In this document: in pieces, positions 13,402 through 30,730 of the stretch | Layout of the letters: every line of letters begins with the position of its first letter | Position numbering within the stretch: the first letter of the stretch is position 1 | NCBI GenBank assembly: GCA_907163375.1 | Contig: CAJQUW010008625.1 | Coordinates: forward strand, 1-64,000 | DNA length: 64,000 nucleotides | Direction: 5' to 3' | From: Prostheceraeus crozeri | Taxonomy: Eukaryota; Platyhelminthes; Polycladida; Euryleptidae | The notes under the pieces: model-generated | Told to the model about the DNA's origin: nothing | Database searches by the model: none | What the model saw: the letters and a program-made list of their open reading frames with translations, nothing else | Translations under genes and position numbers: made by a program

Positions 13402-13968
13402 AGTAATGGGCAAAAGACCGTTCCAGGCCACCATAAAATTCAAAAAAATAGTATCTTTAAAAACGACATAAATTCATGAATTTGAACCCTTTTTCAGGTT
13501 TTTAAGACCTAAATACATGAATTTAGTCCATTCAAAAGTACCATTTTTGAAAAAATGGTACTTTTTAAAAACGACATAAATTCATGAATTTGAACCCTTT
13601 TTCAGGTTATGAAGACCTAAATTCACAAATTTGGGCGTTTTTAAAAATACCCAATTTTCAAATTTTTCAAAATCTCAAATTTGAGAATTACAATTTTTAC
13701 CTTGAAAATCATGACCGTTCTAGGACACCGAAAAAATCATAAAAGTTGAGAATCTCAAAATTTGAGAATTACAATTTTCACCCTCGCCAAAATCATGACC
13801 GTTCCAGGACACCGAAAATTAGTATTTTTAAAAACGTCTTTTAAATCTATTTTTTCAGGTTTTTAAAATATATCATGTGACTAAAAATATTTCTTTAAAA
13901 ATGGAAGAAACAAAAGTGGAAGGAACTTCAGAAATGGAAGGAACCTCAAGAATATATCCTTCGTTATC
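13402..13968 (+). repeat. left terminal inverted repeat
   Basis: Pairs with 30172-30730 in inverse orientation. It contains internal subrepeats (AAATTCATGAATTT, TCTCAAATTTGAGA) and a hairpin around GTACCATTTTT/AAAAATGGTAC. It runs into the first codons of the gene starting at 13901. The two copies differ by small indels, notably in the run of GGAAGGAACTTCAGAAAT units, which is longer in the right copy. Confidence 0.9.
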
Positions 13969-14614
13969 ATATGAACGTAGTTCTACTTTAATGGACATTG
14001 AAAAGATTAACATTGAAAAAATGAATAAAGAAAAACACAAAGATAGAGTTAGGTATATGAAAGATAAGGAATCTCAATTATTATTAAGATTAGAGCATTA
14101 TAAAAAATTAAGAAAGAGATGGACTAAAGTTAAGAATGTAACACAAGGAATTGGCATATTCTTAACAATAAGTTTAGGTGCTTTGACAATTGTTATATCT
14201 TCAGGTGTTTTAGTAATTCCAGTAGTTGCTACAGCTTTAACAGTTACGGGTGTTTTTGCAACTTCACTTGTTACAATGTTAGATAAATCTTTAATAACTA
14301 AGAAACGAAAATCATTAAAAACTAAGCATTTACATATTAAAGAAGTCTATGATAAACTACATTACTACTTTCAAAGAGTATGTGATGATAATGTTATTAC
14401 GTTAGATGAGATTGAAAAATTTGATCAAATAGCTAATGAAGTAAATCAAATATCATTTCAATCACAGACAGAAAAAGTTGATGATAAAAATAAAAAGGAT
14501 GGCAAAATTTCTAGTGATGCTAAAATTTCTAATGAAGAAAATGACAAATTTTTTTTAGAAGAGCTAAAAACTTTAAGCGAAAATTTAAGCAAAACTTTAT
14601 TAAACAAAACTTAA
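13901..14614 (+). CDS. adintovirus membrane/coiled-coil protein, unknown function
   Basis: A 237-residue open frame. I start at the ATG at 13901 because it has the TTTAAAAATG context shared by other genes of the element; an in-frame GTG lies 24 bases upstream. The N-terminus is a Glu/Thr/Ser-rich repeat (EETKVEGTSEMEG) that lies inside the terminal inverted repeat. Next comes a basic helical segment, then two hydrophobic membrane-spanning stretches (around GIFLTISLGALTIVIS and VLVIPVVATALTVTGVFA) separated by a short turn. A charged, partly coiled-coil tail ends with the Glu/Lys-rich C-terminus. The family is not recognised; a virion or host-membrane role is inferred only from topology. Confidence 0.7.
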   Translation: MEETKVEGTSEMEGTSRIYPSLSYERSSTLMDIEKINIEKMNKEKHKDRVRYMKDKESQLLLRLEHYKKLRKRWTKVKNVTQGIGIFLTISLGALTIVISSGVLVIPVVATALTVTGVFATSLVTMLDKSLITKKRKSLKTKHLHIKEVYDKLHYYFQRVCDDNVITLDEIEKFDQIANEVNQISFQSQTEKVDDKNKKDGKISSDAKISNEENDKFFLEELKTLSENLSKTLLNKT

Positions 14615-14748
14615 AACGAGAAAACTTAAAACGAGAAAACTTTAAACGAAAAGATGTCAAACAACAAAGCAATAAAAAAATAATTTGTTCAGTAAAATGT
14701 TTTTGCTGTATTCCAATGTTACCACAAAATTCAAATATTATATTTTAA

Positions 14749-15595
14749 AAATGGATAAAATTAGAGCTGATAATTTTAAAAGAATAAAACAATTAGAAGA
14801 GTTAATAAAACAAAGAAATATTATGAAAGAAAATCATCTTCAACATAGAATGATAAAAGCTGGTATTCAATCTGATATGTTTGAAAAAATGCAGCAAACC
14901 GAGCAAATAAAAACTGATTTTGAAAAAACTATGAAACCATTTAAAACTCTTGAAAAAGAAAGTACAAATAATGATAAAAAATTGATATAACAGATCCAGA
15001 GCACAAAACTATATTAGATGACTATGGATTACTAGAATCAAACATTAATAAGAAATTACCAAAATCTATGCAATTTGAACATTCTATTTCATTTATAGAT
15101 GGAAAAACAATACCTAGATTTTATCTCGGACAAAAAGAAATATTTCCACAACCTTTTCGAGGTTTAATTTTTTCACCAGATAAATCTCCTTTTAATTTAG
15201 ATAGAAATTTTGTTAATCTTTTAAGAGGAGCAGATTTAAATAATTATGCTGTAGAAGATCTCATAAAATATAAAGCTATGTTAGACAGAGTTGGTGCAGT
15301 AAAATATCTTAGACGTTATAAACAATTAGAAAATTTATTATCAACGGGAGTTAAAGTAGGAAAAGGTTTATCTGAAAAACAGAAAACTGAAACAACTGTA
15401 TTTTTACCAGATGATCCACAAGAATTACTAAATAGATTAAATATTTTAATATCTGCAATAAAAGAAGGACATAATTCTAGTTTCAATGAAATTCATGCTA
15501 TATTGAAAAGACTGTTAGAAAAGAAGATTCTAAATGAAGAGGATTATAAAAGTATAACTGGACATCTGAGATGTCTTCCAGGGCTTCGCCCGTAG
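14749..15595 (+). CDS. conserved helical adintovirus protein, frameshifted
   Basis: Two abutting frames, 14749-14990 and 15004-15595, together read like one protein of about 280 residues. The first part is a charged coiled coil (RADNFKRIKQLEELIKQRN); the second contains a segment FRGLIFSPDKSPFNLD, LDRVGAVKYLRRYKQL and a C-terminal helical repeat ending KKILNEEDYKSI. The frames are offset by one base at the A-run near 14979-14984. I prefer the ATG at 14749 (TTTTAAAAATG context) to one 64 bases upstream. The last codons run into a GC-rich mini-palindrome at 15561-15591, so the C-terminal residues LRCLPGLRP appear to come from that insert. It is placed between the membrane protein and the minor capsid gene; function unknown. 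Confidence 0.6.
15561..15591 (+). repeat. GC-rich mini-palindrome, full 31-bp copy
   Basis: Two hairpins in tandem: GACATC-TGA-GATGTC, spacer TTCCA, GGGC-TTC-GCCC. It is the reverse complement of 21545-21575 with one mismatch in 31 bases. It supplies the last codons of the upstream gene. Confidence 0.9.
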
Positions 15596-15676
15596 CTGAA
15601 ATATGTTGTTGTTTTTAATTTTTTATAAAAAAAAATATTTCATAAAAAAATATTTATTTAATTTTTTAGTTTAAAA

Positions 15677-16465
15677 ATGTGTTCAGCAGATTTAGACAAA
15701 ATTAATAATCATTTAGAAAATTTGATAGAGATTTTGGGTTCATCAAAATTTAGTACGACGTTAAAAATTATAACAACTACTTCATCACACACTTGTAATT
15801 TAGAACCCATTCTACATTTGGAACAAAATAAAAATTATCAAATTGCATTGACTAGTTTCTCTACATTTAACACTATTCAAAACGTTATCAAAGATGTGAA
15901 TGATCAATTTAGATATTCTACTGATAAAGGCAAAACATGGAAAATACTAACTTTTCTTCCTGGTTCTTACGAAGTTGAAACAATATCAAATGAAATTAAG
16001 AGACATTTAGGTATACCATTTAAAGATAAGAAACAATTACATTTTGCAGTTGAACCGGCAGTTAATAAATTTTCTCTTACTTTAGACGAAAATCATCAAG
16101 TTGATTTTAATCATGATAGATCATTGTCAAAGCTATTAGGATTTAATAAACAAACCTATAGTCAAGGTTATCATTTAGGTGAGAAGATTCCAAAAATAAC
16201 TGAAATAAATTCAATTGTTGTACATTGTGACATTATTGAAGGAGGATATATAAATGGTAAATTATCAAATTTAATATTCAGTTTTCCAGCTTTTACTGTA
16301 CCCATTGGTTATAGATTAAATGTAATTCCACAAACATTAATATATTTTCCTATTACAAGAAAAACTATTAACAACATTGGCATTAGAATCACTGATGAGA
16401 AAGGACAAGAAATAAATTTTGGAGGTGAAGAGATTATGATAGATCTTTTGGTTCGGGAGGTATAA
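15677..16465 (+). CDS. minor capsid (penton-like) protein
   Basis: A complete 262-residue frame after a GTTTAAAAATG start. The N-terminal half shows the Polinton/adintovirus penton pattern: a strand with Ser/Thr-rich TTSSHTCNLEPILHL, then NKNYQIALTSFSTFNTIQNV, the conserved 'aromatic-x-x-x-Leu-x-x-Phe-x-x-Tyr/Phe-Asn-x-Ile' segment seen at the start of these jelly-roll proteins. Regular alternating strands continue to the C-terminus. Its size matches minor capsid proteins of the group. In the particle it would form the pentameric vertices. It sits directly upstream of the packaging ATPase, a common order. No interruption seen. Confidence 0.78.
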   Translation: MCSADLDKINNHLENLIEILGSSKFSTTLKIITTTSSHTCNLEPILHLEQNKNYQIALTSFSTFNTIQNVIKDVNDQFRYSTDKGKTWKILTFLPGSYEVETISNEIKRHLGIPFKDKKQLHFAVEPAVNKFSLTLDENHQVDFNHDRSLSKLLGFNKQTYSQGYHLGEKIPKITEINSIVVHCDIIEGGYINGKLSNLIFSFPAFTVPIGYRLNVIPQTLIYFPITRKTINNIGIRITDEKGQEINFGGEEIMIDLLVREV

Positions 16466-16552
16466 ACTCCCACGCGAAGCTAGAGAAGTTTAATTTTTCT
16501 TCTTCTTCTTTAAAAACAAAAATAAAATAAAAATAAATTTTTTTATTAAAAA

Positions 16553-17319
16553 ATGAGTGAAGTGCTACCATTAAATAAAAAAAACTTAAATTTAATCATC
16601 ATCCAAATTTATCTAATAAAGTTTTGTCAGTTATTTGTGGAAGATCAGGTTGCGGAAAAACGTATCTATTATTTAAAATTTTAACGACTCCAAATTTTTT
16701 GGATTATAACAATCTTATAATTTATACAACAACGGCAGAACAACCCGTCTATCAATTTTTAAAATATGGATTTGAAAATAATCTTAAAAAAACAGCAATT
16801 GCTTCATTATTCAAAGAATATGAAAAATCTGAAGATGAAGAAGAAATAAGTTCGTGGTGTGAAGAAGCAGCAAAAAATAATCAGTTAGTAGAATCTAATA
16901 AAAATAACCATATAAAGATACAATTAATAGATGATAGTGGTAATATGCAAGATCCTAGTAAACTAGATAAAACAATGAAACATTGTGTAATTTTTGATGA
17001 TTGCGTTAATGATAGAAATCAGTCAGTTCAGAGAAATTATTTCACAAGAGGTAGACATAATAACTGTAGTGTATTTTATTTAACACAAAGTATGTATTCA
17101 TTAGACGGAAGTGTTATTAGAAAGAATGCAAATATATTTATACTATTTGAAATAAATGCAAGAAACTTAAGTGATTTGTTAAGAGATTTATGCGTAAGAA
17201 ATAAAGATGAATTTAAACAATCGTGTAATAATGCTTGGTCAAAAGATTATGGCTTCATTACAATTAATATTGATAAAAAAATTCATGAAAGAGTTATCGA
17301 AAATATTTTCGCGGAGTGA
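16553..17319 (+). CDS. FtsK/HerA-type genome-packaging ATPase, one frame offset near the start
   Basis: The main open frame (16624-17319) begins just before a Walker A motif, CGRSGCGKT, and has a Walker B (CVIFDDC) about 115 residues later. Then comes RNYFTRGRHNNCSVFYLTQS, the conserved sensor/arginine region of A32-like packaging ATPases. The likely start is the ATG at 16553 with the element's typical leader; its frame runs about 10 codons to an eight-A run (16577-16584) followed by C. The ATPase frame is offset there by -1. The sequence fits both a single-base loss and a canonical A-AAA-AAC slippery heptamer. It would drive DNA into the capsid. Confidence 0.82.
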
Positions 17320-17401
17320 TAAAAATATACAAATATAGTGTTACAATATTTTTTTTTATTTTATATATATATCAAATTTGTCTATCTTAGAAATTAGAAA
17401 A

Positions 17402-20400
17402 TTAAAAAGGTGAAGTAGTTATTCCATCAGGTAAAATTTTTCTTTTATCATCAAATGGATCTAATGCTAATTGATGTTCTTCTTTTAAATACATGTTATG
17501 TTTTTTTGAATTAAGTCTATAATTACATGCTGTTTTTATTTCATTATTAAATAATACATTTTTATAATCTTGAAATGTTATTTGATTAGCCACTTATGCC
17601 TTTGAAATTCCTTTTAATGTTTTATGTGTTTTAATATTATTAGTTGTATCATAACAGTAACATTTAGATTTTAAAAATATAGCTTCTGTTATGAAATCTT
17701 CATTTCCTTCTAATTCATCTTTTACTTTACATAAATCAGAAGGATGAATGATATCTTTTATTTTATCTATTTCTTCATCAAGTGTAGAATTATACGGTAT
17801 TGTTAATTCTAAGAAAACAGAATCGGTATCTGTAAAGTGTAATTTATAGTTTTTGCCATAAGCAGGTGCTAAATAATCATATATAAATCTATACATAAAT
17901 AGTTTAGCTAATTCTAATATAGTGAAACCAATAAAATTAAACTTATCATGTTTTACGCTAATTCGACGTAAATGTACAGCACATAGTTCATCACTAAATC
18001 TAGTAGTTCTTTTATATGTAGGTTTCCTTGTTAAATTTTGAAACCTATCTTTATCATAAACTATTTCAATATTTTGTCTATTACGCACATTTTCTAAAGT
18101 CTTACCATAAAATGCATTATTCATTAATTTGAAGAACACGTTTCCAAAATCATCTTTATTTCTTTTAGCTATTTTACGTTTTTCAATATTGAACTCTATA
18201 TAATTTTTTAACCACCTAGATTTTTGATAAAATGGTTTTCGATGTATTTTGGTGAGAATCATTCCATGATCTAAATACCAATCTAGCATTCTTCCTTCAA
18301 CAACATACTTTCCTTTATTGCTTTGTGTTAACATAAGTTTTTTTTGTTGGTCTGTATTTTTTAGGAATTAAAGATTTTTGATAATCTGAAAAATCTTCTA
18401 TATTAGGAATTTTGTTTTCGGGACAGAAAGGAAAATATTTTGTTTTATCTTTTATTTCATCAGGGTACACTAAATCAACTTCATATACATAACCAAAATT
18501 ATTTTCACCATCATATGTTTTTTGATAATCTAGAATATTACACCATGACATTTCACCTGTTGGTAATTCTTGTATCATGCAAGAAGAATATAAGCTATTA
18601 AAATCATAATATAACAAATAGTTTTCTCTCATGAATTCATCAATTGCATTTTCACGTTCTACTCCTTCTCGTTTCGTTCGAAAAAATTTCTAATATTTTT
18701 TCTTTTTCTTCTGGAGATAAAGGTTTCATTATTCCATATTCTTGTGGATTTACTTTCTTATTATAACATTTAACATATCTATTACCTAAAACTGATGAAA
18801 CTCCACCTCTAATTCCAGATTCAAAAAATAATAATTTATCATATGTATTTTCTTTATAATGTTTAAGTTTAACATTTGTATGTTTTAATCCTGCTAGCCA
18901 TGTTAAACCTGGTGTAGAATAACAATAACATGGATCTATTCCGTAATATTCTAAACACATATCACGAAAGTTTTCAAAAAGATCAGCTAGTATTAATACA
19001 TCTATCTGTAGATATTTCATTGTATAATCATACATTGTTTTACAATTTAACTCTCTCCAATTTTTTTCAGCTTCTGCATAGTCTTCGTCAGATAATTTTG
19101 ATTGTTTTAATGTTGATTTAAATTTATTTATTGGAGGAAGTTGTTCTTCTTCCATAATTTTATTCACAGAATTAAAATCAGTCTTCGACTGTGAACCACA
19201 GTTTTATCTCCCATTATATACTCATACGGAAATATTCCTTTTAAAGGTTTTAAATTATATTTATTTAATATTTTACATTGTTCAGATTTCAAAGTTTTTC
19301 CCATAACATCTAATGAATAAGGAGTAAAAAATCTAAATGCATCTAAAATTCTAATGCAACCTAATTGCATTGAAAAATATTCTTCTTCTGTTTTACATAG
19401 TACATTTATTTGTTGTTGTTGTAATTTTTCAGATGAAAATAAATCTTTCATTACTAGATGGAAATCATATTTAGAACCATTGTAGAAATATAGAGGAACA
19501 AAGTTATATTTAAATTTATTAGCATTAAGATTACAAGAATTATGTGCTGCACCTCTATATAATCCATTTAGATGATCATGATCTTTTACCTTGACGGCAG
19601 AGCCGTCGCTTCGCTTGTCAAGATATCTACCTTTGCCATTTTTATAATTTTTTGTAAATTCTCTTCCACAGTAATAACATTTTGTTTCATTAATAAAATT
19701 TAATTTTTCTTTTTCTGTTAATGGCATCATTGGAATATTTGTTTCAAGCAATTGTGAAAAACGTCCTTGTAATTCTTCTACTTTCTTTGTAAACATTTCT
19801 GAACTATCTTCACCATAGTATTGTAAATATTCTGATTTAAATAATTCAGGATAATTTGAATGAATGTACATTCCCCAACATAATGGTTTTTGTTCAAATA
19901 AATATTTTTCTTTACTTTGTTCAGCTGAACTTTTTCCAGGTGCACTTTTTTCAGAATTATAATTTTCAGAATCGGTGAAGCCCTGGAACTTTCCGTTCGA
20001 TTTTGTGTCATATTAACATTATATGCTTCAAAATCACAATAAATAGTAAAGGGTACTTTATTTTTAAAATACCATTTATTATATTCTAAATAATCATCTT
20101 TAGGAAAAGTATTTTGAACTGCTTCATTTTGTTGGCAATTCTCCAAATGTCTATTCATTTCTTCTAAAGTTCTAAAACTTGTCATACATTGAAGACAAGG
20201 AAAATTTTTATTATCTGAAGTTTTTGTAAATATAGAAACATCTTTACACAATATAAAATGTCCCTGATAATATAATATATTCGCTTGTGCTGGTTGTTTT
20301 GACTGTTCTAGTTTTTCAAATTTATCTTGATATATTTCATGTGTTTCATCAATTTCTTTTGTAATATTAAATGTATTTTGATGATAATTTTGATTTAATA

Positions 20401-21964
20401 TTTGTAGCTGATAAATATATTCTTTATCATATTGTTCTTTATAATGTTGTAGACATTTTTTTAAACATTCATTTAATCGGAGCGAAGCTCCTCTGGCTTT
20501 AGCCGATTCTTTATTTTCTTCATTATTTAATTCTTTATTATTTTCTTCATTTAATTTTTGAATTGTTTCTATCTCATTTTGATATTTATGGTGATATTCT
20601 TGTAGCAACATTTTTATTTGTTGTTGATAATCTATTTTACATTTTTGTAAACTTTTATTTAAATTTTCTAATTTTTGTTGATATTCTGAAGATAAAGATG
20701 AATATTTGTAATTATAATCATCAGTACGTCCTTTATAATTATTATGATTAATCATTATTGGTGATAGTGTTTTAACAAGTTCAAATTTTTCAGTACATAT
20801 CATATTTCCTTGGTAAAAAATATTATGATGCATGTAATTTCCTCTATCATTATATACTATTTCTGATTGACATAAATTTTTATTATTCAAATAAAATTTT
20901 TTTGAATCTGAGTAAAGTGGAATAATTTTACCAATAGAAACATAATTCACATTTAATTCAAAAACATTTACTTCAATTAAATTTTTATTCTTTTTATGAA
21001 ACTTTATTAATCTATTATAATCATATGGAAATTCATCTAAGCCATCAGAAAGATCAAATTCATTTATGTATTCTTCTTTATTATAATGACTTAGTCTTTC
21101 TTTATGATATTCTGCAGGATGTAAATGTGCTATAATACTCCACAGAAAACAATAATCATCTTCATTTTTTATGTTGATTATTTGTGGTGAACTGAAAGGT
21201 AAAGAAACATAACTACCACCAGTATTATTTTTATATTTATCAATTACTATTTTCTTAGATAGTATTTTAACAAATCTCCAACCAGATTCACGTAACTGGG
21301 CTTCAATTATACAATTTTCTAATTTAAGTATCATCGATTCAAATATGGGTTGTATATCATTTACATTATGAATTTCTTGTGAATTTGTAAAATGTCCTTG
21401 TATTATTTCTTCAGGAATTCCATCAGGTCCATTTTTTGTATAAAGTACTTCTACATTCATATAACATTTGAAAGATTTCTTAAATATATTATAAAAGTTG
21501 GTTAGAATATCAGAAAAAGTTTTATCGGTTTCATTATATTCAACGGGCGAAGCCCTGGAAGACATCTCCGATGTCCCGCGAAAAGACTGATTAAATAAAT
21601 ATTTTATATTTGCTAAGGCTTCATCAAATTCATCTATTTCGTTAAATTCATCAGTATCGCCAAATAAATATCTTCCATCTGGTACGAGCGAAGCCCTAGA
21701 ACCTTCGGTTTGTATGGTCTCATCTTCACTATCAAAAACTTTTTTATATTCCGAATGTGAATAATCATCAAACATTTTTTTAACTTTTATATCAGTAGGC
21801 AATGTTTCTAGATAGTTTTTATAACTATTTAATTTTAATATATTTCCTTCATCAACTCGTTCTACATTTTGTAAATGCATTTTACTTTGTAGATGAGATT
21901 GATAACTTCTTTTTGTTTGCAACTTTTTTTTACATAAGACACAATAAAACTTGGTATTTTCCAT
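17402..21964 (-). CDS. polB: protein-primed family B DNA polymerase (PolB), disrupted
   Basis: About 1500 codons across six consecutive frames. The N-terminal part (from 21964) has a C2H2 zinc finger (CVLCKKK...H...H), a conserved Polinton segment INIKNEDDYCFLWSIIAHLH, a long Gln/Glu/Lys coiled coil and a second zinc finger (CLQCMTSF...H). Exonuclease motifs follow: CDFEAYN at about 20030, NGSKYDFHLV at about 19460 and YLQIDVLILAD. Polymerase motifs are DFNSLYSS (A, about 18600), KLMNNAFYGKT (B, about 18115) and TDTDS (C, about 17825). Breaks are frame changes near 19980, 19185, 18660 and 18340 (an eight-T run on the plus strand), plus an in-frame TAA at 17594-17596. Three of the frame changes coincide with GC-rich inserts. 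As it stands the enzyme cannot be made whole. It would replicate the element from a terminal protein. Confidence 0.9.
19179..19191. repeat. mini-palindrome at a PolB frame change
   Basis: CAGTC-TTC-GACTG, a perfect hairpin with a three-base loop. It lies exactly where two PolB frames meet. Confidence 0.75.
19591..19621. repeat. mini-palindrome inside PolB
   Basis: GACGGC-AGA-GCCGTC at 19593-19607, enclosed by TTGAC...GTCAA outer arms. It is translated in frame as part of LDKRSDGSAVKV, between the exonuclease motifs, and looks like an in-frame insertion. Confidence 0.8.
19974..20000. repeat. mini-palindrome family, degenerate copy at a PolB frame change
   Basis: GAAGCCCTGGAAC...CCGTTCG, related to the copies at 21688-21710 and 22660-22686. 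The PolB frame changes at this point. On the minus strand it encodes TESSRASP. Confidence 0.7.
20477..20506. repeat. GC-rich mini-palindrome, 30-bp copy inside PolB
   Basis: TCGGAGCGAAGCTCC followed by TCTGGCTTTAGCCGA: a GGAGC-GAA-GCTCC hairpin plus GGC-TTTA-GCC, with outer arms TCGG/CCGA. Nearly identical to 24455-24485. Translated in frame within the coiled coil as AKARGASLR. Confidence 0.9.
21545..21575 (-). repeat. GC-rich mini-palindrome, full 31-bp copy inside PolB
   Basis: GGGC-GAA-GCCC, spacer TGGAA, GACATC-TCC-GATGTC; reverse complement of 15561-15591 with one mismatch. Translated in frame in the PolB N-terminal region as part of EMSSRASPVE. Confidence 0.9.
21688..21710. repeat. mini-palindrome family copy inside PolB
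   Basis: GCGAAGCCCTAGAACCTTCGGTT: the GAA-loop hairpin followed by AACC-TTC-GGTT. Encodes TEGSRASL on the minus strand. Sister of 22660-22686. Confidence 0.85.
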
Positions 21965-22084
21965 TTTTTTTATTTTTTTAGAGAAAATTTAAGAAAAAAT
22001 TTGTGTTTTAATTTTAGATATAAACATTCTAATATCAAGGACTTGAGTGTTATTTTATATTATTATATATTTCACGTTCTTTAG

Positions 22085-22150: not shown

Positions 22151-22155
22151 AATGT

Positions 22156-23411
22156 TTAATCAAAAGATAATTTAAATTTATTTTCACTAACTATTGATTC
22201 TTCATCATCATCATAAATTGATTCTTCATCATCATAAATTGATTCTTCATCATCATCATAAACTACACTTTTTGGGATAGGATACCATTCTCTTATTGGA
22301 ATATCTAACTCTAAATTACATCTTTTATCTGATAATAATATAATAGAGAAAAATATTGGTCTTTGATCTCTTTTGGAAAATTTAATAACACCACCATAAT
22401 CTGAATCACTTTTAGTTTTTATTAAAGATGATAAAATTTTAAATTGATTAGATGTAAATCCTAATTTAAATTTTGTAGACCCGACACATAGTTGTCTAAC
22501 AGTATCTTCAACTATACCATCATTATTATTTTCAATTGTAAGAAAATGAAATTTAGATAAATTTTTATAATTACTAATATTTTTATAATCTTTTTTACCA
22601 TTTACACCATTTTCAGATGTTACAGAATCATCATTATTATCATAAGATTCTCTAAGATCGGGCAAAGCCCTAGAACCTTCAGTTCGTTTATTATGAATAT
22701 GATTATGGTCATTGTTAATAGTATAAGGTGTAGACCACATATAAATTTTCTCTTGTTGAGCTAAACCATTATATAAGATTTTAATAAATTAATATTGAAG
22801 TTGGAATATAATCCTATATACGTATCATCATCATATCTTTGGGGCATTTCTAATGTTTCTTGTTTATAAATTGTGTCTCTATAATAAACTTGACATAATA
22901 ATTCTTCATTATGTTTTTTACTCTCTATGTGAATGTTATATTGATTTTGATCGTCAACAAATAATCTAATTTTTTCTTTCGAAAAAGATTTTAATTTTTT
23001 AACTAATTCTTTAATATTGATATAATTAATAATTTTAGTTTCTATCCAATCAGTATTACTAATTGGTAACACTGCTCTAATAAATCCATAAACATTATTA
23101 TGACCTATTATAACCATATTTTCTTTATTTAATTCAACATAAGCTACATCATTATATTTACTTACAATCTCCATAAATTTAATAAATGGATCCCCCGGAA
23201 ATAAACAATAATTAGTTTCTATAGAAGGTAAACCTTTAGTCTGTTCTCTAAATATTTCGGCTTGTAATTGAAATAAAATATTAACATCTATACATGGATT
23301 ATTATTATTATTATTATCAAAACATTTATTTTCAAATCCCGTTGATCTCGTCGAATAAGAAGAACAGGATGATGCGGGCGAATATAATTTTTTTAAATTT
23401 GGATTTTCCAT
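22156..23411 (-). CDS. possible sliding-clamp-like protein, frameshifted
   Basis: Two minus-strand frames, 23411-22761 and 22740-22156, meet with a one-base offset at an AAAA run near 22770. The second frame is open upstream of its first ATG into the overlap, so they are probably one gene of about 415 residues. The first part has alternating strand/helix segments (FIKFMEIVSKYNDVAYVEL, then VYGFIRAVLPISNTDWIETK). The second has KFKLGFTSNQFKILSSL, then GGVIKFSKRDQRPIFFSIIL, which recalls the C-terminal clamp domain of PCNA/Rad9-type proteins. The tail is an acidic repeat (DDDEESIYDDEES). The similarity is judged by eye only. Its place beside PolB in the same orientation fits a replication role. 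Confidence 0.45.
22660..22686. repeat. mini-palindrome family copy inside the clamp-like gene
   Basis: GGGC-AAA-GCCC, then TAGAACCTTCAGTTCG. Encodes RTEGSRALP on the minus strand, close to the peptide from the copy at 21688-21710. Confidence 0.85.
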
Positions 23412-23543
23412 TTTTTTATTTTTATTAGAAAAAATTTTATTTTTTATTTTTATTAGAAAAAATTTTATTTTTTACTTTTATTAGAAAAAATTTTATTTTT
23501 TTATTGTTATTAGAAAAAATTTTATTTTTTTATTGTTTTAAAA
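23412..23543. promoter_or_regulatory. divergent intergenic region with tandem repeats
   Basis: Four to five imperfect copies of TTTTTATTAGAAAAAATTTTA fill the 132 bases between the minus-strand clamp-like gene and the plus-strand fibre-like gene. Both starts read from it, so it probably holds two divergent promoters. No exact box can be assigned. Confidence 0.5.
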
Positions 23544-24427
23544 ATGATGTTACCAAATGTTGGTGGAGGTGCATATATCCCGAATAATCGTGAATTAGAA
23601 AGAGATAGAAAATTATATCATGAAAACTGGAGACGTTTTATCTGGACCATTGCATCTTTCTATTCTTCCGCAACAAAATACAGAGTTAACAAATAAACAA
23701 TATGTTGATACACAAATCAATGATTTAAAGGAAAAATATATAAACGATGTTTTGGTTCCACTGATGAATGAATTAAAGTTGCTAAAACTTAATGACAAAT
23801 CATTAAACGAAAAATTATTAAAACTTGATAAAAAGGATAGAGAGCTAGAAGCAGATATAGCAAAACTTTTTAAAAAGATTTCTGAACAATCAAAAATTTT
23901 AATATTACTTTCTATAAATTTAAAATCTGCAGTCATTAAAAATAAACATCAGATAAAAATGTTAAAAGAACAATTAGAAGATGAAATAGAAAAACTACCT
24001 GAAAGAATTAAAAAAAATTTAAAGCAGTTACAAACTACATTCCAAAAAAGTGTTGATGAATTAAGTTCTAAAATTACTCAACAAATGAAAAAGATGAATA
24101 GAATAATAAATGAAGTAAACTCACTTAATGAAAAAGTTGATAAAATGAAAAATCTGAAAATCAATTTAGAAAATGAATTAAAGAAAAATTTACAAGAAAA
24201 CTAAAGAAAATAAAGAACAGTTAGATTCTGTTAAAAGACAATTAGATGTTCTTAAAATTAAGTTAAATGCACTTAAAACGGCGTTGAAGATGAATCAGGT
24301 GAAAATGCAAGTTAATAGAAAAGAAATTAAAGTACATCACACGCTGCTTGACGCAATAGATAAAGTGCAACAGGCAATTAATAAAGTTATCTCGAAGTTG
24401 TTGTCCATTCACAAACGTAAATCTTGA
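23544..24427 (+). CDS. fibre-like coiled-coil protein, two frame offsets
   Basis: Begins at an ATG in the TTTTAAAAATG context (MMLPNVGGGAYIPNNRELE), changes frame near 23621-23625, runs open to 24204, changes frame again near 24197, and ends at TGA 24425-24427; about 290 residues in all. The middle starts TGDVLSGPLHL and NTELTNKQYVD, closely resembling the G-D-x-(M/L)-(T/S)-G-P-L...KxYVD repeat of phage tail fibres. The rest is a long Leu/Lys/Glu heptad coiled coil. Both offsets are +1 and both occur at the same heptamer GAAAACT. A trimeric attachment fibre is plausible but not shown; there is no obvious globular knob. Confidence 0.55.
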
Positions 24428-24441
24428 TCGACGAAGTCTTG

Positions 24442-24485
24442 GGTTTCTAACCTATCGGAGCGAAGCTCCTCGAGGCTTTAGCCGA
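24442..24485. repeat. mini-palindromes after the fibre-like gene
   Basis: GGTT-TCT-AACC (24442-24452), then the 31-bp unit TCGGAGCGAAGCTCC...GGCTTTAGCCGA (24455-24485), nearly identical to 20477-20506. Here they sit in the intergenic space and could also end transcripts. Confidence 0.85.
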
Positions 24486-24526
24486 ACGTAGATATTTTTC
24501 CCAAAAGTCAAATTTAATCCTAAAAA

Positions 24527-25087
24527 ATGCCTATAATTTATAAACACAATCTTAAACATTTTGCATCAAATAATAAGATTGCTCATGAACCATCTCAGAA
24601 ACCTGTGTACCATTATGATAGTGTAGAAACTGTCGGAACACAAAAGTTCCTAGGCACCGCAGGTGCCGTTCACACGGAAGGAGCTGGGATCTTCTCTGGT
24701 ATTGGTAGTATCGTTAACTTAATTAAAAATAATAAAGATTTGATTACATCTGCTGCAAAAGGAGCAGCTGCTATAGGTAGTACAGCTAGTGCAATATCAA
24801 ATGCTGTCAAGTCTCAAAACGAATTAAAACAACTAGAAGCTATTCGTAAACTTAGGAATGATTCTGAAGAACTAAAAAATTTAAAAAAACTTTCAGAGGA
24901 AACAAAAAACAAAATTGCTAACATAGCTGTTGGGGAAACCTTGAGGAGCGGAGCTCCGTCTAATAGTAAACATAATGAAAATAAAAATAATAAAAAAACA
25001 ATTGAAGAAATAAGAGGAAATGGCGTGAGTAGCAACCTTCGGTTTAACCAGCAAAGCTGTAGCGGAGCTGGTCTAGCAAAATTCTAA
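24527..25087 (+). CDS. small virion protein with amphipathic membrane-active-type segment
   Basis: A complete 186-residue frame preceding the major capsid gene. After a basic N-terminus it has a Gly/Ala-rich segment, GAGIFSGIGSIVNLIKNN then SAAKGAAAIGSTASAISNAV, of the kind seen in adenovirus protein VI-like and related minor virion proteins. A Lys/Glu coiled coil follows. The C-terminal 60 residues look partly built from GC-rich palindrome inserts (24945-24957, 25034-25044, 25047-25072), giving LRSGAPSN and NQQSCSGAGL. Another insert (24653-24667) encodes LGTAGAV. A capsid-interior, membrane-disrupting role is inferred from composition and position. Confidence 0.55.
   Translation: MPIIYKHNLKHFASNNKIAHEPSQKPVYHYDSVETVGTQKFLGTAGAVHTEGAGIFSGIGSIVNLIKNNKDLITSAAKGAAAIGSTASAISNAVKSQNELKQLEAIRKLRNDSEELKNLKKLSEETKNKIANIAVGETLRSGAPSNSKHNENKNNKKTIEEIRGNGVSSNLRFNQQSCSGAGLAKF
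24653..24667. repeat. mini-palindrome in the pVI-like gene
   Basis: GGCACC-GCA-GGTGCC, six-base perfect arms with a three-base loop, in frame. Confidence 0.8.
24945..25072. repeat. cluster of mini-palindromes at the 3' end of the pVI-like gene
   Basis: GGAGC-GGA-GCTCC (24945-24957), AACC-TTC-GGTT (25034-25044) and ACCAGC...GCTGGT (25047-25072) with an inner AGC-GGA-GCT. All lie in coding sequence. Confidence 0.8.
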
Positions 25088-25213
25088 AATATATTTTTTA
25101 GTAAAATTTTTTTAGTAAAATTTTTTTAGCAAAATTATTTTAGCAAAATTATTTTAGTAAAATTTTTTTCTGTCTGTGAGAAAAAACAAAAAGTCAAATT
25201 ATTTTTTATAAAA
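25088..25213 (+). promoter_or_regulatory. repeat-rich leader of the major capsid gene
   Basis: Five to six imperfect copies of TTTTTTAGTAAAATT precede the ATG, followed by a short unique leader ending TTTATAAAAATG. Similar AT-rich repeat leaders precede other genes of the element. A late-promoter role is inferred. Confidence 0.45.
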
Positions 25214-26548
25214 ATGTCTTCGCTTATCGAAAATAAATTTAGATTAGACGATCCTCCGTTCGTCAGTTATAATCAAAAAAAGAATGACTATATAAGAATT
25301 GCTATGAATCCCGGATCTTCCAGTAGAGTAAATACTGGAGGTGATTTAATTTTTGAAGTTGATAATCAGCAGAGTTATTTATATCTACCTGATTCATTTT
25401 TACACTGTGAATATTCTTTATATAGTGATGCTAATTTTACAACACCATTACCAGATACCGATAATATTGCACTAGAGAATAATTTCTTTCCAAGATTATT
25501 TACACAAATGCGTTTAGATGTTGCAACTCAAAATATAGAAACAATAAGTGATTCTCCAGGTGTAATTGATACAATGCTTAGATTTGTAACAATTGGTGAA
25601 AATAATAAAAAGTATGAAATCGAAGGTTGGTTTCCTGATACTAATGATGGTATAATTGTTGATGATTTAACTCACGCTGGAACAGATGCAGCAGGAATTG
25701 CGAAAGATGTAGAAAATATTGCAAAACATTTAAATAAAACAAATAATGATGCATATAAAGAAAGACGTGAATTTAACAAAAAAAGTAAACAGACAGTAAA
25801 TTGGTCATTGTCTCCATTATTCGGTTATTTAGATTATGATAAAATATCATATCAATTAAAATTTAAATTAATAATTCATCGTACAGCAAATAATGAATTA
25901 ATCTTTTTTGGTAAGACTGGGAAAAAAGCATATTTGAAAATTGATAGACTTGAATGGTGGATTAAGCATATTACTCCTAGTTTAGAGGTTGAAACAGCTA
26001 TTGCAAAAAGATTAAATACTAACAAACCAATTCCAGTAAATTTTCTAAAGCGTACTGCTAGTTCAGTAACTTTTTCCGAACAAAGATTTAACTGGCATTT
26101 TACTAGAACTGCGAATACTCCAAGATATTTATTACTAACATTTCAAAGAAATAATTCTCCAAGTTTTGATAAGAACAACAATATTTTTCATATTAATACA
26201 ATTCGAAGTTTACAAGTTTCATTAAATCAAACCCGATATCCAATTGATCCATTAAGATTCGATGATACCAATAATCAATTTATGGAAGGATATGATTCTT
26301 ATCGAAATCTTTGTATAGAATTTGGAGTTGAAGCACAATTAACTCCTGGAGATTGGAGACATTTATATCCTGTTTTCTGTTTCGATTTAAGTGCACAATC
26401 TGAAGATATTATCAAGACTGGCTGTGATGTAACAATTAATATTGAAAAAAAAGATTCCACAACTTCATTGATGGCTTATGGTTTATTGCTAGAAGATGTA
26501 AAATATTCTATTGAAATTCTTAATGGAAAGATGGTAAGGATAAGTTAA
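25214..26548 (+). CDS. major capsid protein (double jelly-roll, hexon-like)
   Basis: A complete 444-residue frame. The N-terminal PPFVSYNQKKNDYIRIAMNP and the strand FEVDNQQSYLYLPDSFLHCEY match the start of Polinton/adintovirus major capsid proteins, followed by ALENNFFPRLFTQMRLDV, also typical of the group. A second jelly-roll begins around LEWWIKHITPSLEVE, and the C-terminal part has GDWRHLYPVFCFDLSAQSEDI, a well-conserved signature. Length is close to that usual for the family. It would form the pseudo-hexameric shell. No frameshift or stop is present, unlike the replication genes. Confidence 0.88.
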   Translation: MSSLIENKFRLDDPPFVSYNQKKNDYIRIAMNPGSSSRVNTGGDLIFEVDNQQSYLYLPDSFLHCEYSLYSDANFTTPLPDTDNIALENNFFPRLFTQMRLDVATQNIETISDSPGVIDTMLRFVTIGENNKKYEIEGWFPDTNDGIIVDDLTHAGTDAAGIAKDVENIAKHLNKTNNDAYKERREFNKKSKQTVNWSLSPLFGYLDYDKISYQLKFKLIIHRTANNELIFFGKTGKKAYLKIDRLEWWIKHITPSLEVETAIAKRLNTNKPIPVNFLKRTASSVTFSEQRFNWHFTRTANTPRYLLLTFQRNNSPSFDKNNNIFHINTIRSLQVSLNQTRYPIDPLRFDDTNNQFMEGYDSYRNLCIEFGVEAQLTPGDWRHLYPVFCFDLSAQSEDIIKTGCDVTINIEKKDSTTSLMAYGLLLEDVKYSIEILNGKMVRIS

Positions 26549-26750
26549 TTAAAATTTTTTCATAACTAGAATAGATTAAAAATTCTTAACTTAAAATTTT
26601 TTCATAACTAGAATAGATTAAAATTTTTTGGTAACTTAAAATTTTTTAGTAACTTAAAATTTTTTCATAACTAGAATAGATTAAAATTTTGATATCTTAA
26701 AAATTTTTCGTAACTTAAAATTTTCGTAACTTAAAATTTTTTTATTAAAA
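26549..26750 (+). promoter_or_regulatory. tandem-repeat leader between capsid and pX-like gene
   Basis: Repeats of AAAATTTTTTCATAACTAGA and shorter AACTTAAAATTTTTT units fill the 200-base gap. No open frame. Probably transcription-control or spacer DNA for the downstream gene. Confidence 0.5.
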
Positions 26751-27236: not shown

Positions 27237-27244
27237 TAACCTCA

Positions 27245-27257
27245 GAACCTTTGGTTC
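27245..27257. repeat. mini-palindrome after the pX-like gene
   Basis: GAACC-TTT-GGTTC, just beyond the stop codon. Could act as a 3' hairpin. Confidence 0.7.
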
Positions 27258-27314
27258 TTTTCGGTAAAACAATTATTTTATTTTATCTTTTAAATTTTTT
27301 TTTTATCTTTTAAA

Positions 27315-28697
27315 ATGAATTCTAAAAATTCCGAAAATTTAATTAAATTAAAAATTTCTAATTTAGATTTATTGAATTATCTATTAAACAAAAATAAAAA
27401 CTTAAATTGTAAAATTTATGAAGGTAACGACGACAAACAAAGTTTGGCTACTACCTACGGTGGTGACATACAAAAAACATTAGAAAACTTTCCTGGATTT
27501 ATTTGGAGTAAATATTCGAAAGAAAAACATCTTCCTGGTCATTCATATACCGGTCCAGGAACTCGATTAGATATAAGACTAGATGAGAATAATAATCCGA
27601 AACCAGGTGAAGAACCGATAAATAGAGTAGATGCCGCAGCTTACAGGCATGATTTAGCTTATCGAAATCATGATCTAAGTTCTCGACATGCAGCTGATAA
27701 GAAGATGATTCAAGAATTAGATAGTATTCAAAATCCTACATTTAGAGAAAAAATTGAAAGAATGTTTGTTAAGAAAGCTTTACAAGCTAAAATATTATTC
27801 GGTCAGGGTTTAAATGAAACGACAGCAAAGCTGTCTGAGAGCAACGCTCGAACTAATAACTCTGAGAGCAACGCTCGAACTAATAACTCTGAGAGCAACG
27901 CTCGAACCTACGCGTCTGAAATTCATAAAGAATACAGAAGGCCTAAATATTTATTGAAAGTAAAAGTATTTAATAAAGATGATATTTGGAGTGCTGATCT
28001 TATTCATATGCCGAATGAAAGGGACTACAAATACGCATTGACCGTTATAGATTTATATACACGATACGCTTGGGTAAAGCCTTTAAAAAATAAAAGTGGT
28101 CTTTCAGTTAAATATGCGTTTGAAGAAATCTTTAAAGAAAGTAAGAGAAAGCCAAAAAAATTGTTTGTTGATAAAGGGTCGGAATTTTATAACCGAAACG
28201 TTCAGCCACTATTTGAAACTGTTTATTCAACTGAAAATGAAGGGAAGGCTGTAGTGATAGAAAGATTCAATCGGACGTTAAAAAATAAATTATTCAAGAA
28301 ATTTACTGAGCAAAGAAATCAGAAATGGTTGAAGATATTACCAGGAATTGTAGAAGAGTACAATAATAAAGTTCATTCTGGTATTGAAGAAACTCCAAAG
28401 AATGCTTCTGACGACCCTGATTTAATACGAAAGAAAATATTCGAGAATAATAATTTGAATGAGAGTAATCCGAATTTGCAGAAACTTAAGCCGAAATTTA
28501 AAATTGGAGATAGAGTTAGAATATTTAAATATAAGAATAAATTTGAAAAAGGCTTTGTTGGTTATTGGACTAAAGAAATATTTGAAGTTTGCAAAATAAA
28601 TCAAAGTTATCCGATTACTTATGAAATTAAAGATTTAGATAATGAGGATATCAGAGGCCGTTTTTATCAAAATGAATTACAGAAAACAGAGCTTTAA
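27315..28697 (+). CDS. phospholipase A2 - retroviral-type integrase fusion
   Basis: A 460-residue frame. Residues 70-135 are a parvovirus-type phospholipase A2: calcium-loop YTGPG (78-82) and VDAAAYRHDLAY with the His112-Asp113 catalytic pair. A linker follows (residues 169-200) made of a palindrome-derived codon run and three copies of the 9-residue unit SESNARTNN. Residues 221-390 are a DDE integrase core: Asp228 in IWSADLI, Asp286 in FVDKGSEF, Glu316 in VIERFNRTLKN, then an SH3-like tail (FKIGDRVRIF). The second Asp and the Glu are 29 residues apart instead of the usual 35, so a short loop is missing. No N-terminal HHCC finger is evident. The integrase explains the 6-bp target duplication; the lipase would breach endosomal membranes during entry. 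Confidence 0.88.
   Translation: MNSKNSENLIKLKISNLDLLNYLLNKNKNLNCKIYEGNDDKQSLATTYGGDIQKTLENFPGFIWSKYSKEKHLPGHSYTGPGTRLDIRLDENNNPKPGEEPINRVDAAAYRHDLAYRNHDLSSRHAADKKMIQELDSIQNPTFREKIERMFVKKALQAKILFGQGLNETTAKLSESNARTNNSESNARTNNSESNARTYASEIHKEYRRPKYLLKVKVFNKDDIWSADLIHMPNERDYKYALTVIDLYTRYAWVKPLKNKSGLSVKYAFEEIFKESKRKPKKLFVDKGSEFYNRNVQPLFETVYSTENEGKAVVIERFNRTLKNKLFKKFTEQRNQKWLKILPGIVEEYNNKVHSGIEETPKNASDDPDLIRKKIFENNNLNESNPNLQKLKPKFKIGDRVRIFKYKNKFEKGFVGYWTKEIFEVCKINQSYPITYEIKDLDNEDIRGRFYQNELQKTEL
27821..27915. repeat. 27-bp tandem repeat built on a mini-palindrome
   Basis: GACAGC-AAA-GCTGTC (27821-27835), then three units each containing GAGC-AAC-GCTC (27839-27849, 27866-27876, 27893-27903) at an exact 27-base period. 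In frame as SESNARTNN repeats joining the lipase and integrase domains. Confidence 0.92.
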
Positions 28698-28731
28698 CCT
28701 TTAGGTGGCGCTTTAGCTAGCTTCGCTTGAG

Positions 28732-29220
28732 TTATAGATTGTTTAACTCTAACATAATATCTAGAAATGGTACTCCTTTTTGTAATTTGTACAAAACGTA
28801 TAAACATAATTGTCCACAATAGGTAGTGCCTGGTTTTTGAATTTGAAATGTATTGTATGTTCCCGTTCCAAGTAATTCTTTTACTTCATTTGTAGGGGGC
28901 AAACCGTATGAATCGAACCAATAGTTCTCAGCCTCCGGGCGATCAAAATAATAGTTCTGCTGATGATTTTTAACGCCTGCTGACCAATGTACACCTTTTT
29001 CATTTGACGTATGAAGATTTGTTATGAAATTTACAGTTATTGATGGAACTTTGTTCCGGGAACTGAAGGTTCCTGTTGGCCTATTTTTTAGGAATTGTAA
29101 TTCATCCCTCATCAATATGTGAAAATTCTTTATTCCTAATCGATTAGCGATTTTCTTTAGGTCGAAATTCGTTGTCGTTTGTGTTCCATATAATTTCAAA
29201 AACTCATTTATGTTGCTCAT
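28732..29220 (-). CDS. adenovirus-type cysteine protease (adenain-like, C5)
   Basis: A complete 162-residue frame convergent with the integrase, 34 bases away. The catalytic layout is His78 in GVHWSAG, Asp103 in YWFDSYGLPP and Cys135 in TTYCGQLCLYVLY, in the order and spacing of adenain. The N-terminus (INEFLKLYG, then GIKNFHILMRDEL) is the usual start of the Polinton/adintovirus protease. It would mature virion proteins. A mini-palindrome pair (GGAAC-TTT-GTTCC at 29045-29057 and a neighbouring GGAAC...GTTCC) is in frame near residue 55. Confidence 0.9.
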   Translation of the reverse strand: MSNINEFLKLYGTQTTTNFDLKKIANRLGIKNFHILMRDELQFLKNRPTGTFSSRNKVPSITVNFITNLHTSNEKGVHWSAGVKNHQQNYYFDRPEAENYWFDSYGLPPTNEVKELLGTGTYNTFQIQKPGTTYCGQLCLYVLYKLQKGVPFLDIMLELNNL

Positions 29221-29257
29221 TTTATAATAAAAAAAATTTCTTATGGGACCCCTAGAA

Positions 29258-29440
29258 GTCAGAGGGGGGGTATTGATTTAAAACTGGTCTCTAATGATGT
29301 CTTTCTTTACTACTTAGTCAGAAGGGGTATTGATTTAAAACATTTTTATAATGATGACTTTCCTTACTACTTAGTCAGAAGGGGGGGTATTGATTTAAAA
29401 CTGGTCTCTAATGATGTCTTTCTTTACTACTTATTCAATT
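29258..29440. repeat. about 58-bp tandem repeat downstream of the protease start
   Basis: Three units beginning at about 29258, 29317 and 29374, each GTCAGA(A)GG-G-run-TATTGATTTAAAA followed by TAATGATG(T/A)CTTT. Units 1 and 3 are almost identical apart from the G-run length. It lies just upstream of the minus-strand protease gene, so it may carry its control region. Confidence 0.85.
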
Positions 29441-29530
29441 TTGAAATGATTTAATTTAATCTAAATTTAAACGTTACATTGTTGCATTGCATTAGTAGAG
29501 TAAATGTTTCGCACATATTTTATCAATAGT

Positions 29531-29653
29531 AATTCATTACTCATCAATATGTGAAAATTCTTTATTCCCAATTGCTTAGCAAACTCATTTAAATCGAAAT
29601 TTAATGTGGTTTTGTTTGCCGTATATTTTTAGAATGTCTCTAATGTTTCTCAT
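29531..29653 (-). pseudogene. degenerate duplicate of the protease N-terminus
   Basis: Reading from an ATG at 29653 on the minus strand, the sequence parallels the first 40 codons of the intact protease: a KIYG segment, then a frameshift, then FDLNEFAKQLGIKNFHILM. Only this N-terminal piece is present; the catalytic part is missing. A partial tandem duplication within the element is the simplest reading. Confidence 0.75.
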
Positions 29654-30171
29654 TTTAAATGGAATAAAATCTATTTCAGAACTTTCTCAAAAGAATTAGC
29701 GTGTAGCAGCTGCTAAAATTGTTTCAGCTGATAGGGGTGAAGGAAATCACAGACAATAGCGCATAATGCGAGTTGTGAAATCTCATTCACACTATGAGAA
29801 CAAAAGAACAAATACAATCTAAACACAATAGACATATGAGAGAGAAGAGAAATGAATGAGCATTTCTCTTCATTTTGGGTTTCCATAACAATCATTCATG
29901 CGACATTGCTTTGAATGGAAAAATACACCAACTGTCGCGCCGATGTCAGAAAGTTTGTCGATAAAGCTGTCGACATGGTTCGATAGTTGGTGTATTTTTC
30001 CATTAGCGTTCAAGGTCATTCTATTAAAAGCATATGGGAATTATTCTCATTGAAGACAAGCAATTGTTTTAAATAATGCATGTCATTGTGAATACAATAT
30101 TCCTGTAACAGACAGGAACGAGAGAGAGAAAGAAAGAAAGAAGACACGCTGCTCCGTAAAAGTTTAATTGA
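29654..30171. other. non-coding right arm with a foldback insertion
   Basis: No viral gene is seen between the protease fragment and the right terminal repeat. The segment holds a foldback unit (29914-30004) and an AGAGAGAGAAAGAAAG tract at about 30120-30140. Base composition is nearer to the host flanks, suggesting host or transposon DNA acquired by the element. Confidence 0.5.
29914..30004. mobile_element. foldback/MITE-like insertion
   Basis: The 20-base arms AATGGAAAAATACACCAACT (29914-29933) and its reverse complement (29985-30004) are perfect. A second inner pair around GTCGA/TCGAC lies between them. No coding capacity. Confidence 0.75.
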
Positions 30172-30730
30172 GATAACGAAGGATATATTCTTGAGGTTCC
30201 TTCCACTTTTGTTTCTTCCATTTCTGAAGTTCCTTCCATTTTTGTTCCTTCCATTTCTGAAGTTCCTTCCACTTTTGTTTCTTCCATTTTTAAAGAAATA
30301 TTTTTAGTCACATGATATATTTTAAAAACCTGAAAGATGGATAAAATTCATGAATTTGAAATTCTCAAATTTGAGATTCTTAACTTTTATGATTTTTCGG
30401 TGTCCTAGAACGGTCATGATTTTGGCGAGGGTGAAAATTGTAATTCTCAAATTTGAGATTTTGAAAAATTTGAAAATTGGGTATTTTTAAAAACGCCCAA
30501 ATTTGTGAATTTAGGTCTTCATAACCTGAAAAAGGGTTCAAATTCATGAATTTATGTCGTTTTTAAAAAGTACCATTTTTTCAAAAATGGTACTTTTTGA
30601 ATGGACTAAATTCATGTATTTAGGTCTTAAAAACCTGAAAAAGGGTTCAAATTCATGAATTTATGTCGTTTTTAAAGATACTATTTTTTTGAATTTTATG
30701 GTCGCCTGGAACGGTCTTTTGCCCATTACT
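30172..30730 (-). repeat. right terminal inverted repeat
   Basis: Inverse copy of 13402-13968. It carries a truncated copy of the first codons of the 13901 gene, here with three additional GGAAGGAACTTCAGAAAT-type units, and then leaves the homology at 30172. The terminus AGTAATGGGC is exact. Confidence 0.9.

Follow-up and report, generated by a model that had tools for sequence, protein, structure and literature searches.

Introduction

Double-hairpin elements of Allomyces mitochondria, palindromic repeats of Volvox organelles and the palindromic elements of Rickettsia are the closest described counterparts of a family of short GC-rich hairpins analysed here in the polyclad flatworm Prostheceraeus crozeri. 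The hairpins lie in a 64,000-nt stretch of genomic DNA (contig CAJQUW010008625.1, positions 1 to 64,000; hereafter the window), inside an element at 13402-30730 that is classed by its sequence features as a Polinton/adintovirus. On balance, they probably form a small family of double-minihairpin elements that are GC-rich, non-coding and mobile and that multiplied within a single Polinton/adintovirus lineage; the family would then comprise about 12 units, mostly of 24-34 bp, together with single hairpins. Their non-random structure, their insertion in comparison with relatives, the dispersed copies and the lack of enrichment of the core hairpin class (defined below) in flanking host DNA are well supported.

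Rickettsia palindromic elements, like the units studied here, are GC-rich palindromes that sit in protein genes, with the reading frame kept, in a genome rich in AT; they differ in being bacterial and longer, about 100-150 bp, and we know of no defining triloop signature in them. The initial annotation had likened the hairpins to these elements and to organelle GC clusters, and both prove to be comparable. The Allomyces elements, as here, are double hairpins without flanking duplications for which mobility has been proposed, and their insertion frequency differs between closely related species (PMC2800124). They are fungal mitochondrial elements, compared by description only, and an RNA intermediate has been suggested for them (Paquin et al. 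2000, via PMC2800124). The Volvox organelle repeats share plastid loops of 3-5 nt and occurrence in both orientations; units inserted into one another are found among them and they are read as selfish DNA, but they are almost confined to noncoding DNA, their loops are mostly TAAA/TTTA and their units average 50 nt (PMC2670323). By analogy, the present family may work like the Allomyces double-hairpin elements, the sponge RHE and the Volvox palindromes (PMC2800124, PMC2670323). The same loop class is seen in GNA minihairpins of the d(GCGAAGC) type and in Streptomyces telomere palindromes (PMC4686876, PMC7205883). The latter lie at linear replicon ends with terminal proteins and are exposed in replication; unlike the units here, they are telomeric and neither dispersed insertions nor mobile (PMC7205883). 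The carrier belongs to the type of Polinton/Maverick and adintovirus elements, which have terminal inverted repeats (TIRs), a 6-bp target-site duplication (TSD), rve integrase, double-jelly-roll (DJR) capsid, family B polymerase and ATPase. In the Polinton/adintovirus and viral hairpin-element literature, surveyed mostly by title and abstract opening, no such hairpin family was found, and none of the literature holding core hairpin words concerned such elements, as judged by title.

Hairpin Excess and Loop Signature

Hairpins were counted between the inverted repeats of the element as perfect, with a 3-nt loop and an arm of at least 4 that holds at least 3 G/C and at least 60% G/C. There are 17 such triloop hairpins, where 60 dinucleotide shuffles average 1.18 and never exceed 4, and 9 with at least 4 G/C pairs, compared with 0.03 by shuffle. 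Other loop lengths (0-2 and 4-12) display a milder excess, 1-8 each against 0.92-1.22 expected. The core class, defined by loop and closing pair as C[R-N-A]G, has 14 members in the element; 200 dinucleotide shuffles give 0.165 (maximum 2) and 500 shuffles within 200-nt blocks give 0.178 (maximum 2). A chance origin is rejected, as both kinds of shuffle give far fewer hairpins. The initial annotation had named a frequency equal to that of shuffled sequence as the outcome that would speak against its reading; the frequency found lies far above it, and the dispersed hairpin family inside an adintovirus/Polinton-type element that it had proposed is real. The positions that it listed hold hairpins as described, with small corrections. 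The hairpin placed at 27245-27257 is present with a true span of 27244-27258, and at 21688-21710 one perfect hairpin (21700-21710) stands while the second is imperfect. The arms at 24442, 25034 and 21700 have only two G/C pairs. A known RNA family is rejected as well, with 0 gathering-level Rfam matches and no tRNA in the window.

The loops are far more uniform than the stems, which vary freely (GGGC, GGAGC, CAGTC, GACGGC, GGCACC, GACAGC, AGAACC and others). Read on one strand, most hairpins have C[GNA]G or C[ANA]G as their loop with its closing pair, and a single tandem group has C[AAC]G. Signature loops occur in 13 of 17 distinct hairpins with at least 3 G/C pairs (17/21 with copies), compared with 14% by chance (63/439 hairpins from 300 shuffles); the binomial p of 1.5e-8 overstates the significance, since certain units are related to each other and AAC joined the class after the data had been seen. 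A C-G closing pair with a GNA or AAA loop characterizes most hairpins, not all, and AGA, AAC and TGA/TCA loops also occur. The AAC and AGA loops presumably belong to the class of single-residue DNA loops, and to our knowledge RNA does not have the same triloop preference. AAA and GCA triplets are named as single-residue DNA loops in reference titles (PMC6479982), and GNA-loop minihairpins such as d(GCGAAGC) are compact, have a melting point near 78 C and are resistant to nucleases (PMC4686876). By analogy with these minihairpins, the loops of the units would mostly be of the compact DNA type, and their melting behaviour and nuclease resistance may carry over. The initial annotation had not noticed the loop signature, nor two features described below, the pairing of hairpins and the polymerase frame changes associated with units.

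So strict a signature would also fit hairpins that are functional parts of the virus under selection, with roles in packaging, restart of replication, protection from nucleases or mRNA structure; insertion would then explain no more than how they arose. The GCA/GGA loops at Streptomyces telomeres, for which protection has been proposed, point the same way (PMC7205883). A selected function is nevertheless distinctly unlikely: the related contig L039 has no counterpart, no GC-rich triloop hairpin is found in the carrier's terminal repeats, and one unit lies at, and one near, a polymerase frame change, which selection for function would not favour.

The host DNA on either side of the element (46.7 kb in total) behaves differently from the element. 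The core class is not enriched there, with 1+0 hairpins against 0.7+2.2 expected (30 shuffles each), and none of ten unit words tested occurs. All triloop hairpins in the flanks number 23, inside the 14-31 range of the other loop lengths; among those with at least 4 G/C there is a slight peak, with 8 where the other loop lengths have 0-5. This peak would agree with insertions that post-date integration and arose through a host-genome process, as would the divergence of the inverted repeats to 98% and the frame change at 19180-19205, which suggests that the polymerase was no longer needed. With a single core hairpin in the flanks where 2.9 are expected and 0/10 unit words, a host process is quite improbable. 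Within the element, 2 of the 14 core hairpins are intergenic (intergenic share of the sequence, 3415/16203 nt), and the capsid gene, the ATPase, two polymerase fragments and the integrase core are free of them.

Paired Units and Repeat Families

For nine of the 14 core hairpins a second hairpin stands at most 8 nt away, as it does for 6.2% of positions taken at random; the nine include two that partner each other. The units (U1 to U17) include two dispersed homologous families, A, which occurs in both orientations, and B. Family A consists of U1, U5, U7, U8 and U9, a family characterized by CGGGCGAAGCCCTRGAA and a varying second hairpin. U1 (15560..15593, - strand) is a double minihairpin with + strand loops TGA and TTC, and the open reading frame (ORF) 15068-15595 ends inside it. 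U5 (19969..20002, +) is decayed and lies in a variable stretch with a polymerase frame change. U7 (21543..21576, +) combines GGGC GAA GCCC with GACATC TCC GATGTC, U8 (21686..21712, +) combines GAGCGAAGCCC with AACC TTC GGTT, and U9 (22657..22688, +) combines GGGC AAA GCCC with GAAC CTTCA GTTC. Family B consists of U6 (20477..20506, +; TCGG-AGC GAA GCT-CCTCT-GGCTTTAGCC-GA), the intergenic U10 (24442..24486, +), which is preceded by a GGTT-TCT-AACC hairpin, and part of U12 (24945..24957, +; GGAGC GGA GCTCC).

U1 and U7, which stand 6 kb from each other on opposite strands, are identical over 34 nt except for a single mismatch, located in a loop. The initial annotation had noticed this repeat as 15561-15591 and 21545-21575; it is present and longer, running from 15560 to 15593 against the reverse complement of 21543-21576 with one mismatch in 34. 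The near-match of 20477-20506 to 24455-24485 and the presence of GCCCTAGAACCTTC in both 21688-21710 and 22660-22686 were confirmed as first described. Single modules are also held in common: AACCTTCGGTT by U8 and U13, GAACCTTCAGTTC by U9 and U17, and CAGCAAAGCTG by U13 and U15. U13 (25034..25072, +) reads AACC TTC GGTT followed by ACC-[AGC AAA GCT]-GT-[AGC GGA GCT]-GGT. U15 (27821..27903, +), in the linker of a PLA2-like/integrase protein, begins with GACAGC AAA GCTGTC and continues with tandem copies, three of 27 bp (27834-27914), each with GAGC AAC GCTC. U17 (29045..29073, -) shows on the + strand GGAAC TTT GTTCC and then GGAAC TGAAG GTTCC.

The best unit-pair scores, 63, 52 and 38, lie above every score from 4000 comparisons of shuffled units (maximum 25). 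In a second null of 3000 random pairs of element pieces the 99th percentile is 24, but the maximum is 76, perhaps owing to overlap between pieces or to tandem AT repeats. U2 (16463..16495, +) and U16 (28702..28733, -) have GCGAAGCTAG in common with a score of 22, within the null range, and are listed as a possible decayed half-unit and a possible half-unit, respectively. The remaining units are U3 (19180..19205), two overlapping hairpins in the polymerase gene (CAGTC-TTC-GACTG from 19179, ACTGTG-AAC-CACAGT to 19202); U4 (19590..19622), CTTGAC-[GGC AGA GCC]-GTC-[GC TTC GC]-TT-GTCAAG; U11 (24653..24667), GGCACC GCA GGTGCC; and the intergenic U14 (27244..27258), AGAACC TTT GGTTCT.

Comparison with Relatives at the Insertion Sites

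Relatives compared at the insertion sites are 44-84% identical, and an alignable relative was available at eight of these sites. The unit falls within the relative's gap at seven of the eight, in agreement with the expectation of the initial annotation that hairpins would appear as gap-bounded insertions. U1, U9, U11, U12 and U13 lie in ORFs without an available homologue, and U10 and U14 between genes. The two well-delimited sites are U3 and U6, where both arms are new rather than an old arm with its copy. At U6, an exact 10-residue extra, SAKARGASLR, stands in a 728-aa ORF at a point where the relative P0040 (84% identical) continues NKE|LNE. At U3, 26-29 nt are extra in the polymerase gene and the frame changes there: the match to P0041 runs as far as residue 557 at 19206 and resumes with residue 557 at 19179, and that to P0042 runs to residue 656 at 19206 and resumes with 658 at 19176. 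The residues of U4 are missing from P0041 and P0039, while P0042 has an unrelated insertion at the site. U7 and U8 are missing from P0039 and P0042, U8 lying in a 10-residue gap. The four hairpins of U15 are missing in 15 of 15 aligned relatives, taken for the integrase linker alignment among 120 matches listed of 1991, and U17 falls within a 14-residue gap of the L039 protease. By eye at U1, U6, U7 and U10, no repeat longer than 1 nt was seen as a target duplication. From these sequence alignments and the repeat families, it is well supported that the units represent insertions that were copied and scattered within the viral lineage.

The same comparison bears on an independent origin of each hairpin by foldback: in protein-primed replication, the nascent strand would switch template at a local imperfect palindrome, and the product would be kept as a nuclease-resistant fold. 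Many hairpins are indeed alike in fold and not in sequence, and the tandem triplication at 27834-27914 shows that local duplication occurs. Foldback, which the initial annotation had offered as a possible source, is poorly supported and on present evidence unlikely, as both arms are new at 20477-20506 (U6) and 19180-19205 (U3), near-identical units of 30-34 nt stand kilobases apart, oppositely oriented for U1 and U7, and the GC-rich inserts lie amid 27% GC.

Ordinary coding sequence for GC-rich low-complexity peptides, such as the GSRAS and SSRASP in the initial annotation, was also considered. Most genic units leave the reading frame open, as this would predict. The units are, however, read in several frames and are also intergenic, and hairpin pentapeptides are not over-represented in 182 proteins of relatives, with 9 matches against 18.85 for permuted peptides. 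These counts also dispose of the conserved peptides that the initial annotation had seen as a sign against insertion. Together with the gaps in relatives they lead us to reject ordinary coding, which is scarcely credible.

Occurrence in Other Sequences

Only one relative, L039 (CALZFZ010000048.1), was found among genome contigs; IMG/VR gave none by capsid, integrase or polymerase, and phage records gave none either. This 7.2-kb contig, at 27% GC, has 0 core hairpins. It encodes the integrase, a protease-like and an Adeno_PX-like protein and the polymerase of a Polinton relative; it is filed in a Bacteroidota metagenome-assembled genome (MAG), where it is probably a contamination. Two long unit patterns had 0 matches in IMG/VR, and two short hairpin words were found in 38 and 54 stretches, counts given without a chance expectation.

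Core hairpins were also counted in 93 fetched loci, 92 of them picked by hairpin words, with 12 shuffles each. A general property of AT-rich viral DNA is rejected, given that the 10 of 93 loci below 40% GC hold 13 core hairpins, 9 of them seeds, which leaves 4 against 3.84 expected. A few contigs are rich in such hairpins: L043 holds 31 core hairpins in 5.2 kb against 1.3 and is also rich in other loop sizes, and L063 and L084, which have hairpins in common, hold 28 and 27 against 2.6 and 2.2. L063 encodes a terminase and is therefore probably a tailed phage. L058/L067 (IMG/VR) are also dense in triloop hairpins.

Several observations weigh against a mobile family confined to this lineage. Across the 93 loci, core hairpins number 337 (one per locus subtracted) against 192 by shuffle, an excess due mainly to a small number of contigs, L043 and L063/L084 among them; with triloop-rich viral contigs elsewhere, the fold also occurs outside this virus. 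L039 is the single relative whose DNA was compared; the relatives used are 44-84% identical, and no allele with an empty site came to light in this virus or its host. Some borders are loose: the gap of P0039 and P0042 around U7 exceeds the unit, the relative's gap at U17 is likewise longer, the U15 linker varies in length, with long unrelated linkers in P0071, P0084, P0090 and P0098, and the eighth site, U5, has no clear insertion borders, being a variable stretch with a frame change. By the 8-nt test, five of the 14 core hairpins stand without a partner, and an outer stem enclosing the paired hairpins was unsupported as a general feature in 12 units inspected, a tally made without a null comparison. 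For those hairpins that are alike in fold and not in sequence, an independent origin is possible. No transposase signature was found for the units; without this or a target-site duplication, mobility rests on the repeat copies and their absence from relatives. Finally, the intermediate suggested for the Allomyces hairpin elements is RNA and not single-stranded DNA (PMC2800124), the route considered below.

The Carrier Element

The element at 13402-30730 has 27% GC, while flanking 1-kb windows have 30-51%, mostly 33-45%. That it ends at these positions is confirmed by its inverted terminal repeats, which are about 560 bp long (left, 13402..13968; right, 30172..30730), and by a 6-bp TSD, CGCGTT, directly left and directly right of them. 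Left and right repeats are identical in 501 of 511 ungapped columns, with 11 gap events, and each contains a tandem duplication of 108-109 bp (13439-13645, 30469-30686). On the + strand lie a packaging ATPase, Pox_A32-like (16624..17319), and a DJR major capsid protein (25214..26548), both without a core hairpin, and a protein with a PLA2-like domain and a retrovirus-type integrase (27315..28697). On the - strand lie a DNA polymerase B region (17594..21964), broken into several frames, and a probable adenovirus-type protease (28732..29220). The protease ORF has 0 Pfam matches, and its homologue in L039 only a weak Peptidase_C5 match (E 0.064). The TIRs, TSD, capsid, integrase, ATPase and polymerase are the basis on which the carrier is identified as a Polinton/adintovirus.

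The polymerase fragments are of family B, up to 84% identical to P0041, and protein priming is presumed from the family. Their ORFs are 17594-18334, 18652-19167, 19164-19871 and 19778-21964, with a zinc finger and an endonuclease-VII-like region. The latter (CxxC ... DHDHLNG.YRGAAH..CN) lies in 19164-19871 (-), and U4 inside it codes for LDKRSDGSAVK. The C..C, D-H-.-H, R-G-.-A-H and C-N residues of this region are the same in 14 of 14 aligned polymerases, and the window has them too; PF02945 scores above the cut-off in P0039, P0047 and P0062, and below it in P0041, P0042, L039 and the window.

Polymerase homology shifts frame four times (17594-20100, - strand), and the carrier copy is therefore broken there. 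One change is at U3, one in the stretch holding U5 and two, at 18679-18710 and 18339-18361, at neither. The changes at U3 and in the U5 stretch suggest insertion at a time when the polymerase of this copy was dispensable or supplied by another. P0040 appears to carry a frame change of its own in the same neighbourhood. That one change coincides with a unit and another with a unit-holding stretch might also mean that the elements are tolerated through skipping at the RNA or ribosome level. Such skipping is very improbable, since no core hairpin is found at the two further frame changes and the copy may be dead; moreover, we know of no bypassing of insertions by animal cytosolic ribosomes. Its precedent is the bypassed insertions of Magnusiomyces mitochondria (PMC5009743).

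Other repeats of the element comprise diverged copies (78%, 71%) of 105-nt and 65-nt stretches at 29076-29242 and 29508-29675, about 432 nt apart, which overlap the start of the protease ORF and are likely a gene-duplication remnant; a 57-60-nt repeat, three times, at 29263-29437, starting with AGGGGGGGTATTGATTT or similar; and AT-rich short tandem repeats, largely intergenic, at 23382-23552, 25082-25169 and 26545-26724. In the host flanks, ORFs near the element match a caspase domain and FAM69 kinases, which points to an animal host, a reverse-transcriptase fragment lies at 39863-40327, and 46001-48000 has 51% GC with strong AT skew.

Proposed Mechanism and Implications

If the hairpins are mobile double-minihairpin units, as preferred here, their spread may have followed a single-strand route. 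Protein-primed strand-displacement replication would expose long single strands, on which the minihairpins could fold. Folded single-stranded fragments would resist nucleases and persist, and could subsequently rejoin the genome by end joining or primer-like synthesis, without target duplication. Units landing in conserved parts of genes would mostly be lost, so that the survivors would be found in linkers, gene ends and intergenic stretches. The single-strand route, like any enzyme that might act in it, is proposed by inference; it is reasonable because GCA and GGA loops are used by the telomeres of Streptomyces, linear replicon ends that carry terminal proteins, and protection has been proposed as their role there (PMC7205883).

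A bolder version is a long shot. The units would represent a new class of mobile elements born from single-stranded DNA that parasitise protein-primed viruses, built of paired minihairpins with one-residue loops, some Y-closed by an outer stem, and spreading as nuclease-resistant fragments of the displaced strand that are cut and reinserted with help of the endonuclease-VII-like domain of the polymerase. T4 endonuclease VII cleaves branched DNA. The part given to this domain in unit movement is a guess, because the published view of endonuclease domains in Polinton polymerases is that of intein invasions (PMC11071308).

Dispersed hairpin elements have been described in bacteria and organelles. 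A linear DNA virus whose replication presumably exposes long single strands, with units defined by the structure of their loops, makes a route through single-stranded DNA directly testable. For Polintons and adintoviruses, the units add a source of gene disruption and of new linker peptides.

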